From assembly GCA_017621515.1 (NCBI GenBank), contig JAGASY010000087.1:1-64000 (forward strand): DNA of 64,000 nt, read 5' to 3'. Both the position numbers and the translations under genes were made by a program. Shown here one piece after another: positions 1,951-62,410 of the stretch. Source of the stretch: Bacteroidaceae bacterium. GTDB lineage: Bacteria; Bacteroidota; Bacteroidia; Bacteroidales; Bacteroidaceae. How positions within the stretch are numbered: position 1 is the first letter of the stretch; every line of letters begins with the position of its first letter. A model generated the notes under the pieces. That model ran no database searches. It was not told where the DNA came from and saw only the letters and a program-made list of their open reading frames with translations.

Positions 1951-2191
1951 AATTATAGTTTTGTATGTTTCGATTTCAGTCAACATTTTAAGAATTCAAA
2001 CATTTGTATATTGCAAAAATAAATAAAATCTATCAATTGGTGATTATCAAAGCCTTATTTTTTAAGAAAGAGTCTAACGGACACAATAATGTAAGTAACC
2101 GAATATGTCCATATAATTTTACAAAAAGAAACTCCAACAGTCTATGCGACTGATTAAAAATTTGTAATGAATTTAGAAGCAATTTCTGCCC

Positions 2192-3035
2192 TCCATAAGA
2201 AAATTTTTGAATATGCTTTTTTGAGGGGTCACTCGTTTTGACAAAATGACAACAAATTCAAGCAAACAAAACCATTTTGTTTTAATTATCGGAATAATAC
2301 TATCTTTCTGATTTTGTCAAATGTTAAAAATTCAAGTCCTCTGGAACGCTTCAAAATGAAGCGCAACGAACTTTTCTCGAAGAACGGGGATTCTGTGTGC
2401 ATTTTCTGAAGGCTTCGCAAAATGTGAAATAGTGTTTCATTTTGGAATGGTTCTTTTACATTTGTTTATTTCCTGCGAAGAGTCTTTTGGAAAAAAGCAC
2501 TAAGTTTTCAAATTTTCAGCGCACTGTTTTTTTCTTCGCAGCGCACTGCAATTTTATTTGCAGCGCAGTGGAAAATCTCTCACTGTGCGCTGAAAATAAA
2601 AAAACAGCGCGCTGCAGAGAAAAAACCAGTGGGGAGCGGAAAAAAAGACAGTTTACTTCGGTTGAAATATTAAAAAATGTATAATTATTTGCTTTGGAGG
2701 AGCGTCTGAACAGGAACAAAGAAATGAGTGAATTTGCAGTGGTGTTTGAGGGCAAAAATGGCGATCTTCATTGTAACATATTAATAGTCAACAAATTATC
2801 AGAATACTCAAAATCTTCGAAAAATTGCGTCCGACACGTTTTTTTGAGCATTTTGAAAATTTTTGTATTTAATTGGTTATCAGATATTTATTTTCAATCA
2901 AAAATTTTCGTCTTTTCGTCCTCAGCCAAAAATCGGTTCAAATGTTAAATTTTCATTTTGAGCGAAAATATCATTTTGTCACTTAAAAAAATGGTGTTCT
3001 TAGCAGGTTTTTGATTGTTTTAGCAGACATATTCA
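2192..3035 (+). repeat. Dispersed intergenic element, copy A
   Basis: First of four ~0.8-kb copies (others at 9672, 28960 and 54384). It fills most of the gap between the divergent genes starting at 1950 and 3146. Conserved parts in order: a left end beginning CCATAAGAAAATTTTTGA; a block with ACGGGGATTCT; a GC-rich array of five modules (starts 2517, 2539, 2561, 2581, 2605) separated by AT-rich linkers; a block with GGCAAAAATGGCGATCTTC; and a right end with GCGAAAATATCATTTTGTCA. TTTTGACAAAATGA near 2237 and TCATTTTGTCA near 2971 form near-terminal inverted repeats. No transposase or known RNA family was recognised. Outer limits are approximate. Bases 1951-2191 show nothing else recognisable. 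Confidence 0.85.
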
Positions 3036-9524: not shown

Positions 9525-9671
9525 ATTTATAAGTTTTTCTGATTTGACTTATCAAAGGGCAAAGGTACGAAAAAAAACAAATATGGCAGTATAATATGTC
9601 AGATGTGAATGTATTCGACAAAATACTCCGAGCATAACAAATTTATGCAGATGCTTTCGACAGACTCCTAA

Positions 9672-10487
9672 AAACAGCCAAAATGCCACTTTTTAAAATG
9701 ACAAAATGATATTTTCGCCCAAAATGAAAATTTAACACTTGACGCAATTTTTCGTTGGCAGCAAAAAGACAAAAATTTTTGTTTGAAGATAAATATCTGA
9801 TAATCAATTAAATATAAAATTCATCAAAACGCTCAAAAAAGTTCGCCGGACGCAATTTTCTGAAGATTTTGAATATTCTGGTAATCTATTGATTACTAAT
9901 ACATTACAACAAAATTCACTATTTTTACCCTCAAACACCACTTCAAACTCACTCACTTTTCAATTCTTGTTCAAAGAACCTTCCAAAGCCGCGGATTATA
10001 CATTTCTTAACATTTTAGCCGAAACAAACAGTCTTTTTCTCCGTTTCCCACTGTTTGTTTCTTTTCAGCGCACTGTTTTTTTCTTCGCAGCGCACAGTGA
10101 GAGAAAATCCACTGCGCTGCAAATAAAATTGCAGCGCGCTGGAAATGTGACGACAGTGCGCTGAAAATTTGAAAACTTAGTAGTTTTTTTCTAAGAACTC
10201 TTCACCGAAAATAAATAAATGTAAAAGAACCATTCCAAAATGAAACACTATTTCACATTTCACAGAGCCTTCAGAAAATACACACAGAATCCCCGTTCTT
10301 CGAGAAAAGTTCGTCTCGCTTCATTTTGAAGCGTTCCAGAGGGCTTGGAATTTTAACATTTGACAAAATCAAAAAGATAGTATTATGACATGGATTAAAG
10401 CAAAAAGATTTTATTCGTCCAAAATCAATGTCATTTTATCAGAATAAGAATCTCTCAAAAAAAGCATATTCAAAAATTTTGTTATGG
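9672..10487 (-). repeat. Dispersed intergenic element, copy B
   Basis: Reverse-oriented copy of the ~0.8-kb element, between the divergent genes starting at 9524 and 10630. It carries the same blocks as copy A: TGACAAAATGATATTTTCGC at one end, a modular array at 10066-10163 (module starts 10066, 10088, 10110, 10132, 10154), the ACGGGGATTCT block (reverse complement near 10292), and an end reading AAATTTTGTTATGG. In the array the linker TTTTTTTCTTCG is inverted and at the opposite end compared with copies A and D. A frame on the plus strand stays open from 9889 to 10164 but is not a convincing gene. Limits are approximate. Confidence 0.85.
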
Positions 10488-10551
10488 AAGCCATTTTTAC
10501 CGCTGAAAGAGTTAAAAAGAGAACAAGAATACAATAAAGAAATCATTGTAG

Positions 10552-28738: not shown

Positions 28739-28959
28739 CACATTGTGTGATACAAAACAATTTTTTCACATTTTTCTTTGTCATTTTAAATAAAAAGCCC
28801 CGGACCAAAGAAACGAGACTGTAGTGCCAATTAATTCAGCCCAATAAATTTATGTTCTTTCGCAGTTTCTAAGAGCCTATTAAACTTTATTTTATAACTA
28901 TATAGGGGTATTCACAGTCTCTCAGCTAAACAAAATTGAAAGCACTTGCTTAAAACAAC

Positions 28960-29780
28960 AAAAAGCACGCTAAAACGGCATTTTTCGATTTGACAAAATG
29001 ATATTTTCGTTCAAAATGTAAATTTAACACTTCGAGCGATTTTTTGCCGAAAACAAAGAGAGGAAAATTTCACACAAAAGATAAATAATTGATAATCAAT
29101 AATATACAGAAACTCCTCAAAATGCTCAAAAAAACGCACCGGACGCAATTTTTTGATTATTTTGAGTATTCTGATAATCATCTGATTAATAATCCATTAC
29201 ACCCAGATTCGTCATTTTCATTTCCAAACATCACTTTAGAATCACCCACTTTTAAGTTTCCGTTCAAACATTCTGCCAAGGCTGAAATTATACACTTCTT
29301 AACATTTCAATTGAAGCCTATTATCTTTTATTTTGAAGAACGGTGTTTTTTTATTTTCAGCGCACTGTCGTCAAATTTTCAGCGCACAGAAAATAAAATA
29401 GCAGCGCACTGTGGTTGAAAAAACAGTGCGCTGGAAATGTGACGACAGTGCGCTGGAATTTTGAAAACTTAGTAGTTTTTTCCAAAATACTCTTCGCCGG
29501 GAATAAATAAATGTAAAAGAATGGATTTAGAACGAAACACTATTTCACATTTGTCAGAGGCTTCATGAAATGCACGTAGAATCCCCATTCTTCGAGAAAA
29601 GTTCGTTGCGATTCATTTTGAAGCGTTCCAGAAGGCTTGAAATTTTAACATTTGACAAAATCAGAAAGATAGTATTTGAAACAGGAAATCGACATTCTGA
29701 AAACAAAATTATCAAGGTTATTATCATTTTATCAAAACAGAACATCCTTCGAAAAAACATATTCAAAAATTTTTTTATGG
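28960..29780 (-). repeat. Dispersed intergenic element, copy C
   Basis: Reverse-oriented copy between the antitoxin start (28704) and the end of the large PUL operon (29997). It has the same end and block sequences as A, B and D. Its array is the most regular: module starts at 29358, 29380, 29402, 29424 and 29446 are exactly 22 bp apart. The linker TCGTCACATTTC (or TCGTCAAATTTT) occurs at both ends of the array in opposite orientation. The frame that is open in A, B and D on the opposite strand of the element is shifted by a one-base deletion here. Limits are approximate; the flanking 28739-28959 shows nothing recognisable. Confidence 0.85.
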
Positions 29781-29853
29781 AATCTCAATTCCGCAACAAA
29801 CAGACCTCTCAATATCTATGTGTGTTCAGAAATCATCTCGACAGAAATAAGAC

Positions 29854-46219: not shown

Positions 46220-46467
46220 TGGAAACAAATGCTCTAAAAAATAGAAAATTTGTTGCAACAAATACTGAATGCTACATATCTGTCAGAACAATAATCACCT
46301 CGGAGCATTTTCAACCTATTTATACAAAACTGCCACATTTCTTGTCATACATGGCATTTTGAAAAGCTTCTTCAAAAGGAACTATTCAGCGAATCAGTAA
46401 AAGAAACAATATTGATAATCAATATCAAGTTTCTTGTTTTGAACTTGCCTGCAAAATGAAAAAATCG

Positions 46468-46623
46468 GTACATAGGGAAATAGAAAATTGTGCGCTAAAA
46501 ACTCAAATCAACACTGTTGTTTTTATAATCAGCAGTGTGGTTTACAAAATCAGCAGTGTGGTTTTTATAATCCACAGTGTGGATTTGAGTTTTTAGCGCA
46601 CAATTTTCTATTCCTTTATGTAC
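46468..46623. repeat. Palindromic 21-bp-period element E
   Basis: Long inverted arms (about 46468-46509 and 46582-46623, core GTGCGCTAAAAACTCAAATC) enclose four 14-bp units starting at 46506, 46527, 46548 and 46569, exactly 21 bp apart: AATCAACACTGTTG, AATCAGCAGTGTGG twice, and AATCCACAGTGTGG. The arms differ at only a few positions. A related copy is at 62130. The outer arm contains GTGCGCT, also found in the modules of the 0.8-kb elements. Flanking bases 46220-46467 and 46624-46758 hold no gene. A 20-base motif, GATGCCTTCGACAGACTCCT (46759-46778), is shared with 9650-9669 at 19 of 20 positions. Confidence 0.9.
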
Positions 46624-46838
46624 AGATAATATGTTTTCAAGGCACTGTCGGTACATAGAGAGTATGGTATGCTTTCGTCGGTATAGGCAAGTATCTCTAT
46701 TAAGACCGCAGTAACGAAAGTTAGAAGCTGTTTTAAAATTATTTGTTATAGTTGCGTAGATGCCTTCGACAGACTCCTCCGTTTAAACTATAAAAAGGGA
46801 CTGTCGAAAACAAGCCATATATTACATATAAACACAAA

Positions 46839-54082: not shown

Positions 54083-54383
54083 ATTTTAAACAATAAGTAT
54101 ATTTATATCTCATTTTTATATTGTGATGTACATACCTTATTATTAGATTTTTACAAATATAAATTCCGATTTTTCTACCGGGAAAGATATGTCATTCCGA
54201 TTCGCCATGTGTATTTCATGAGCAAAAATAGTTCTTTTAATCATTGACTCCAAATTATTTTATAGTTATATTGTTTTGTTGCACAGATGAAAAACTTTCA
54301 CAAGAAAGCAGAAAAAGAAAGCTTCAGATTCCATTTGTCACCGATGTACAAATGTATCCGGCAAAAATGCCCTGCAAAAAGCC

Positions 54384-55190
54384 CCATAAAAAAATTTTTG
54401 ACATCGTTTTTTGGAGGAATATTCAATTTTGACAAAATGAAAGCTATTCAGGTTATTAATATTTCTATTTGTCTAATTTATTGCATTCATACTATCTTTT
54501 TGATTTTATCAAATGTTAAAAATTCAAGCCATCTGGAATGCTCCAAAATGAAGCTCGCTGAACTTTTATTGAAAAACGGGGATTCTACGCATATTTTCTG
54601 AAGGCTCTGCGAATTGTGAAATTGTGTTTCATTTTTAGATAGTTCTTTTACATTTATTTATCTCCGGCGAAGAGTCTTTTGAAAAAAACTACTAAGTTTT
54701 CAAATTTTCAGCGCACTGTTTTTTTCTTCGCAGCGCACTGTAATTTTATTTGCAGTGCGCTGAAAATTCTCTCACTGTGCGCTGAAAATTTCAAAACAGC
54801 GCGCTGAAAAGATAAAAACACTGGGAAATGAAAAAGAAGACAATTGGATTCGGTTGAATTGTTAAGAAGTGTATAACTCGCTGTTTTGAAATAACACCTG
54901 AACATAATCTGAAAAGTAAGTGGACTTGAAGCAGTATTTGAAGATGAAAACGAAGAATTTAACTATAACATATTAATACTCAGCAAATTACCAGAATATT
55001 CAAAATAATCGAAAATTTACGTCTGGCGCAAATTTTTAAGCATTTTAGAAAATTTCATATTTACCTGATTACCAACAACTTATATTCAAGTCAAAAATTT
55101 TGTCTTTTCACCATTAGCAAAAAATCGCTTCAAGTGTTAAATTTTCATTTTGGGCGAAAATATCATTTTGTCAAAATGAAAAGTAACAAT
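54384..55190 (+). repeat. Dispersed intergenic element, copy D
   Basis: Forward copy between the HTCS start (54082) and GH95 (55354), divergent genes. It begins CCATAAAAAAATTTTTGACA and ends near GCGAAAATATCATTTTGTCA. Modules start at 54709, 54731, 54753, 54773 and 54797. The first linker (TTTTTTTCTTCG) is identical to that of copy A. The block with ACGGGGATTCT precedes the array. A 65-codon minus-strand frame (54905-54708) is the counterpart of those in copies A and B. Bases 54083-54383 hold nothing clear. Limits are approximate. Confidence 0.85.
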
Positions 55191-61973: not shown

Positions 61974-62129
61974 CATGAGGCAGCGCAAGAAACATTTTCC
62001 TTAACAATAATCTTATGGCAGCCAATTTGACCATTTCCTATGCTGAATCGAAAGTATGTCCATAGTTTCGGCATAGTCTTTTGTTATAATCAGTCCATGA
62101 GAAAGACATTTACACCATGCTGAAGAGTA

Positions 62130-62256
62130 GAAAACAGTGCACTGAAAACTCAAATCAACACTGTTGTTTTTATAATCAGCAGTGCTGTTTACAAAATCAG
62201 CAGTGTAGTTTTTACAATCAGCAGTGTTGATTTGAGTTTTCTGCACACTATTTTCA
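62130..62256. repeat. Palindromic 21-bp-period element F
   Basis: Second copy of the 46468 element. Inverted arms (cores AAAACTCAAATCAACACTG and CAGTGTTGATTTGAGTTTT) enclose units AATCAACACTGTTG, AATCAGCAGTGCTG, AATCAGCAGTGTAG and AATCAGCAGTGTTG at 62153, 62174, 62195 and 62216, exactly 21 bp apart. The outer arms are more diverged than in element E. Bases 61974-62129 and 62257-62400 hold no clear gene. Confidence 0.9.
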
Positions 62257-62410
62257 GTTTTTCCCTGCACACCATTTTAGTAAAGAAAGGGGTTAAGAAA
62301 CTATCCATCACAGTCGGGAAATACAGGAAAAAGGAGAATAAAATGGGGCAATGCAGCAAATATTGCATTTTATGGTGCACCAATTCTATTATGAGACTAT
62401 CCGTTATCAG

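Follow-up and report, generated by a model that had tools for sequence, protein, structure and literature searches.

The window, a stretch of 64,000 nucleotides at the start of contig JAGASY010000087.1 of a Bacteroidaceae bacterium, belongs to a 3.39-Mb draft genome (hereafter G000) in 133 contigs with a completeness of 90.75. Its genes include those for Porin_10, SusD-like and TonB-dependent receptor proteins, which are indicative of Bacteroidales. The window contains copies A to D of one repeat element (family F1), each carrying an array of short modules, and two copies of a second family (F2):

2190 to 3013, plus strand: element A (F1)
2517 to 2614, plus strand: five-module array of element A, exact 22-bp pitch (starts 2517, 2539, 2561, 2583 and 2605)
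9654 to 10495, minus strand: element B (F1)
10066 to 10163, minus strand: five-module array of element B, exact 22-bp pitch (starts 10066, 10088, 10110, 10132 and 10154)
28948 to 29790, minus strand: element C (F1), ~800 bp, intergenic and non-coding, with an orthologous element in the sister species G002
29358 to 29455, minus strand: five-module array of element C, 10-bp modules separated by four 12-bp spacers, exact 22-bp pitch (starts 29358, 29380, 29402, 29424 and 29446)
46441 to 46650, no strand assigned: F2 element, with an F2-like two-module form at the same site in G002
54376 to 55184, plus strand: element D (F1), with orthologues carrying other modules in the sister species G001 (L154) and in G002 (L149)
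54709 to 54806, plus strand: five-module array of element D, exact 22-bp pitch (starts 54709, 54731, 54753, 54775 and 54797)
62101 to 62290, no strand assigned: F2 element; the corresponding intergenic region of G002 holds an F1-type element

The module of G000 is CAGCGCACTG, five per array. The module starts in copy C bear out the exact 22-bp steps described in the initial annotation, which had given steps of 20–24 bp for copies A, B and D; scored by the full near-palindromic 10-mer with at most two mismatches, these three copies also have a pitch of exactly 22 bp, and the earlier values probably came from measuring strand-specific sub-motifs. The window contains 11 occurrences of GCGCACTG, compared with 1.05 expected, a count reached in 0 of 100 shuffles. 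Across the genome, the pattern CAGYGCRCTG-N12-CAGYGCRCTG gave 209 matches per strand and its reversed-pattern control gave none. When any gap from 6 to 36 bp was allowed, 258 module pairs were found compared with 0 for the control, and all pairs among the matches listed lay at 22 or 44 bp, so the expectation that spacing would be concentrated at 21–23 bp genome-wide passed this check.

The phase of the array is also retained as copies diverge. Among 85 aligned copies, the array interior showed only four length changes (one gain and three losses), each of exactly 22 nt, and the last column of the array had two 1-nt changes. The 648 flanking columns tested in these copies contained 123 indels, 116 of them of 1 nt, a rate that corresponds to ~18 expected indels when scaled to 98 columns. 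Apart from module three and a difference between subfamilies at module four, modules were nearly invariant, and the spacers fell into a few slot-specific families. In G000, spacer types were strongly linked to their neighbours, this linkage faded along the array and the type of the left end was unlinked to that of the array; such decay would fit recombination between copies. Free, shufflon-like reordering of spacers was rejected because each slot has its own spacer types and these are linked to those of neighbouring slots, as was a CRISPR array, which has repeats of 23–50 bp and unique spacers beside cas genes, because the modules are 10 bp and the spacers are 12 bp and recur. Whole 22-nt gains and losses are also what a neutral minisatellite would produce if polymerase slippage were biased to ~22-bp units, and other genera do have scattered tandem arrays with a 22-bp period and units that differ from locus to locus. 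We nevertheless consider this origin highly improbable: within one array the spacers differ while the modules are conserved, the module number is almost fixed at five, the modules of each species switch in concert and the even spacing of the arrays would be left unexplained.

Each array lies inside an element of ~800–830 bp with sharp ends, as delimited by self-similarity coverage. We counted ~104 elements in 1.15 Mb of G000, which scales to ~300 F1 copies, or an estimated 7% of the genome. Protein-coding function was ruled out, as neither codon periodicity (3-periodic substitution) nor a shared ORF was found in 31 aligned full-length copies. None of 34 elements checked had a predicted gene overlapping its core, and the gene pairs flanking these elements were divergent, tandem and convergent alike. 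An inner (subterminal) inverted repeat, TTTTGACAAAATGATA / TATCATTTTGTCAAA, is found close to both ends, the outermost sequences form no obvious inverted pair, and no target-site duplication was evident by eye in an edge alignment of the 31 copies. A phage or plasmid origin was dropped because phage and plasmid records contained no match to the element. The elements often adjoin another short repeat, likewise interspersed (GTGGATGTATTCGACAGACTCCTCCGTCGC and CCTAAGTTAGGGGAGG), which is present in the right flanks of several F1 elements, at L094-L096 in G001 and near position 14800 of L149 in G002. Many fetched contigs of the G001 assembly start or stop within an F1 element, so F1 repeats probably fragment the draft genomes of this genus.

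The F2 family is palindromic, ~150–200 bp long and present at 13 loci in 1.15 Mb. It consists of four inner palindromic modules at a 21-bp pitch and two outer CAGTGCGCTG-like modules, which resemble those of F1, at 22 bp. The arms of the F2 copy at 46464–46628 are near-perfect inverted repeats, and a long hairpin is predicted for the copy at 62128–62262.

Measured within contigs, so that some gaps are lost where a contig breaks off at an element, the distances between F1 elements (n = 60) had a mean of 11.7 kb, a minimum of 5.5 kb and a coefficient of variation (CV) of 0.39, compared with 0.89 (s.d. 0.10) under uniform placement. For F1 and F2 together (n = 73), the minimum was 4.9 kb and the CV 0.37, compared with 0.88 under uniform placement, and no intergenic region held two elements. 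Choosing real intergenic regions at random gave CVs of 0.73–0.80, with 0 of 1,000 trials as even as the observed F1 and F2 set (P < 0.001), and random placement among intergenic regions was thus rejected. In G002, 29 gaps among the matches listed had a minimum of 5.1 kb and a CV of 0.50 compared with 0.95.

The two sister species carry related elements at the same sites, on the same grid but with other modules. Syntenic DNA in G001 is mostly 87–93% identical to that of G000 and its elements ~70–76% identical; their arrays have five CACCGCGGTG modules at a 22-bp pitch. Four G001 sites were matched to G000 through paired genes (L154 with window D, L157 with L181, L159 with L167 and L160 with L174). 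G002, with ~80% identity in syntenic DNA, has related but shorter elements in the positions of window elements C and D, and its arrays contain four CAAGGTGNNN modules as direct repeats, again at a 22-bp pitch; in total, two F1 sites and one F2 site were orthologous. At the 46-kb site G002 has an F2-like form and at the 62-kb site an F1-type element, so the array type at a site can change while the site itself is kept. Some sites could not be paired between relatives, and the orientation of the element differed at one pair. The module switch extends over whole genomes: CACCGCGGTG pairs number 80 in G001 and 0 in G000 and G002, and CAAGGYG pairs on both strands number 302 in G002 compared with 6–7, the control level, in the others. 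Modules are palindromic or of mixed orientation in G000 and G001, and direct and asymmetric in G002. Full-length G001 copies were monophyletic relative to a sample of G000 copies, and the nearest relative of the G001 copy orthologous to D was not D, which indicates concerted evolution within species. A blastn search with the G002 element returned no match in G000, G001 or 28 genomes outside the genus; orthologous elements are therefore missed by sequence similarity alone.

Species-wide dialects bring to mind DNA uptake signals, which occur singly or as inverted pairs ~1 kb apart; we know of none that are repeated five-fold at a 22-bp pitch within an element of 800 bp. If the modules were self-recognition signals of this kind, a competence receptor would read them and transformation would spread the dialects, an explanation with which recombination between copies fits but which we regard as very unlikely. 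The Neisseriaceae uptake sequences (PMC3630211) do share with the modules a short motif, very many copies and species dialects, which the concerted switch recalls, but, unlike the modules, they are not known to form phase-locked arrays.

The initial annotation had also proposed that modules in both orientations allow many alternative hairpins. Such hairpins are indeed predicted in G000 and G001, where the arrays far outperform shuffles in folding (z = -6.1 to -10.6), as does an F2 element (z = -8.2). G002 arrays at orthologous sites, however, folded no better than shuffles (z = -0.83 to 0.12), and the predicted folds vary from copy to copy and from species to species. Folding is therefore not the conserved trait, and a conserved RNA structure was rejected on the same G002 values. 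That the arrays act as RNA or single-strand hairpins, whether as terminators, REP/BIME-like structures or mRNA stabilisers, is accordingly very unlikely; the occurrence of elements in divergent, tandem and convergent gene pairs alike also counts against it, as does the absence of any Rfam match at the gathering threshold in the window. REP/BIME sequences resemble the arrays in that they are intergenic, occur in many copies and combine short palindromic modules of either orientation into mosaics, but we know of no fixed 22-bp pitch or even spacing in them. They are mobilised by RAYT transposases, whereas PF01797 (Y1, RAYT/IS200-type transposase) had no match above the cut-off in G000, G001 or G002, leaving mobilisation by a RAYT unsupported. 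A sub-threshold PF01797 match is present in a 191-aa open frame at G000:C111:7044-7301. Intrinsic curvature, predicted by a wedge model with parameters that we supplied, was somewhat elevated in two of four G000 arrays, and as a common trait it was rejected because the G001 arrays are straight.

Several features would suit a MITE-like mobile element whose array is a multi-site region for transposase binding and which, through target immunity, would exclude further insertions within ~5 kb and so produce the even spacing. The copies are interspersed, ~800 bp long and sharp-ended with inner inverted repeats, the smallest gap is ~5 kb, and F1 and F2, which avoid each other, have the CAGTGCGCTG-like module in common. 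Mu and Tn7 combine arrays of ~22-bp transposase sites with target immunity. We think this origin unlikely, because the 31 aligned copies include no coding copy and show no clear target-site duplication, phage and plasmid records lack the element, and the GTGCAC arrays of an uncultured Prevotellaceae (G439, RUG483) have no common element. Species with ~92% and ~80% identical genes have elements at orthologous sites, each species with its own module, a pattern that old insertions do not account for.

The analysis showed a fixed pitch, length changes by whole units, intergenic and evenly spaced elements, and conserved sites at which the modules switch in concert between species. The explanation that we favour for these features, with a probability of roughly 45%, is that the array is a platform on which a sequence-specific protein docks, its units binding next to one another, and that this protein has a chromosome-scale role. 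One protein unit would occupy each 22 bp, or about two helical turns, which would place the modules on roughly one face of the helix. Because the platforms lie in intergenic elements about every 11 kb, with at most one per intergenic region, a role at the scale of the chromosome is probable, for instance in anchoring supercoil or loop domains or in marking them. Such a system would be comparable to matS or parS sites, to which a dedicated nucleoid or segregation protein binds. Recombination between copies, selection for copies that track the binding protein's specificity, or both may keep the copies alike. Protein binding, cooperativity and a role in organising the chromosome are what we infer, and what the species have in common would be a recognition sequence repeated at fixed two-turn intervals. 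Where a multimeric DNA-binding protein or recombination site had initially been suggested, a helically phased protein array is the part best supported, by a pitch that stays constant while modules switch in concert and by array lengths that change by 22 nt. The recombination-site role gained no direct support: the decay of linkage fits recombination between copies, but no recombinase was found. The conserved sites, the even spacing, the species-specific modules and the F2 family go beyond the initial annotation.

Some observations count against a docking platform. The module number per array differs (5, 5 and 4 in G000, G001 and G002), and one protein fold must accommodate palindromic or mixed modules in G000 and G001 and direct, asymmetric ones in G002. 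Constraint is not confined to the array, as the flanks of the ~800-bp element contain strongly conserved blocks. Even spacing by itself could also come from insertion exclusion. A wider proposal, which we offer tentatively and with the odds leaning against it, is that these platforms form an undescribed chromosome-wide architecture of Bacteroidales, in which ~300 of them, evenly spaced at ~11 kb, would be read by a fast-evolving array-binding protein and a shift in its specificity would rewrite all sites at fixed positions. Platforms that organise domains would provide a physical basis, defined by sequence, for the ~10-kb domains of bacterial chromosomes, about which little is known in this phylum, and a module switch at fixed sites would, if true, be a natural experiment in the co-evolution of a DNA-binding protein with more than 1,000 sites. 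Even with a mobile origin, so regular a family, at an estimated 7% of the genome and in concerted evolution, would be very unusual in bacteria.

Among known systems, iteron arrays in origins of the R6K and RK2 type have about five tandem sites at a ~22-bp pitch beside AT-rich DNA; they occur as one array per replicon next to a rep gene, in contrast to the ~300 chromosomal copies here of an element without one. The nearest known counterpart is the BrickBuilt element of Porphyromonas gingivalis, described as 19 copies of contiguous 23-nt repeats with IS5-like terminal inverted repeats (PMC4596501). Common to both are the order Bacteroidales, an intergenic position, tandem repeats of ~23 nt between a conserved leader and tail, and small inverted repeats towards the ends. 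BrickBuilt differs in copy number (19 compared with ~300) and in having neither spacers nor a grid of 10-bp modules and 12-bp spacers, and the passages compared report no even spacing or concerted, species-switching motif. Direct repeats of the TAACTGA heptamer form numerous intergenic sets of 2–6 in Beggiatoaceae and also occur in some Bacteroidetes, but their motif is different, they lie mostly just upstream of start codons and the abstract does not report even spacing (PMC4679880). An earlier description elsewhere is possible, the literature comparison having covered open PMC articles with a few queries.

Beyond the genus, we sampled relatives from 30 genera of the family. The GTGCAC arrays of G439 have steps of only 22 or 23 bp and multiples of these, and occur at 13 places whose flanks lack homology; their spacing is only weakly non-random, which counts against the docking platform. 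Other Bacteroidales metagenome-assembled genomes (MAGs) have CAGTGCACTG or CAGCGCGCTG arrays at 22 bp, which together with the G439 arrays indicates that an array can exist without the 800-bp element. G004 and G012 have a modest 22-bp excess with locus-specific units. Short arrays at a 22-bp pitch, with locus-specific and often palindromic units, and a 22-bp peak in k-mer spacing were seen in other Bacteroidaceae genera (G004 L228:6630, L229:17862 and L230:2163; G012 L233:269 and L233:16113; G007 L232:15620). In a distant phylum, a Myxococcales MAG has three CAGTGCACTG modules at an exact 22-bp pitch (L051, 4039–4092) with near-palindromic 12-bp spacers, and another CAGTGCACTG-type pair like this one is found at G441:C15:147559.
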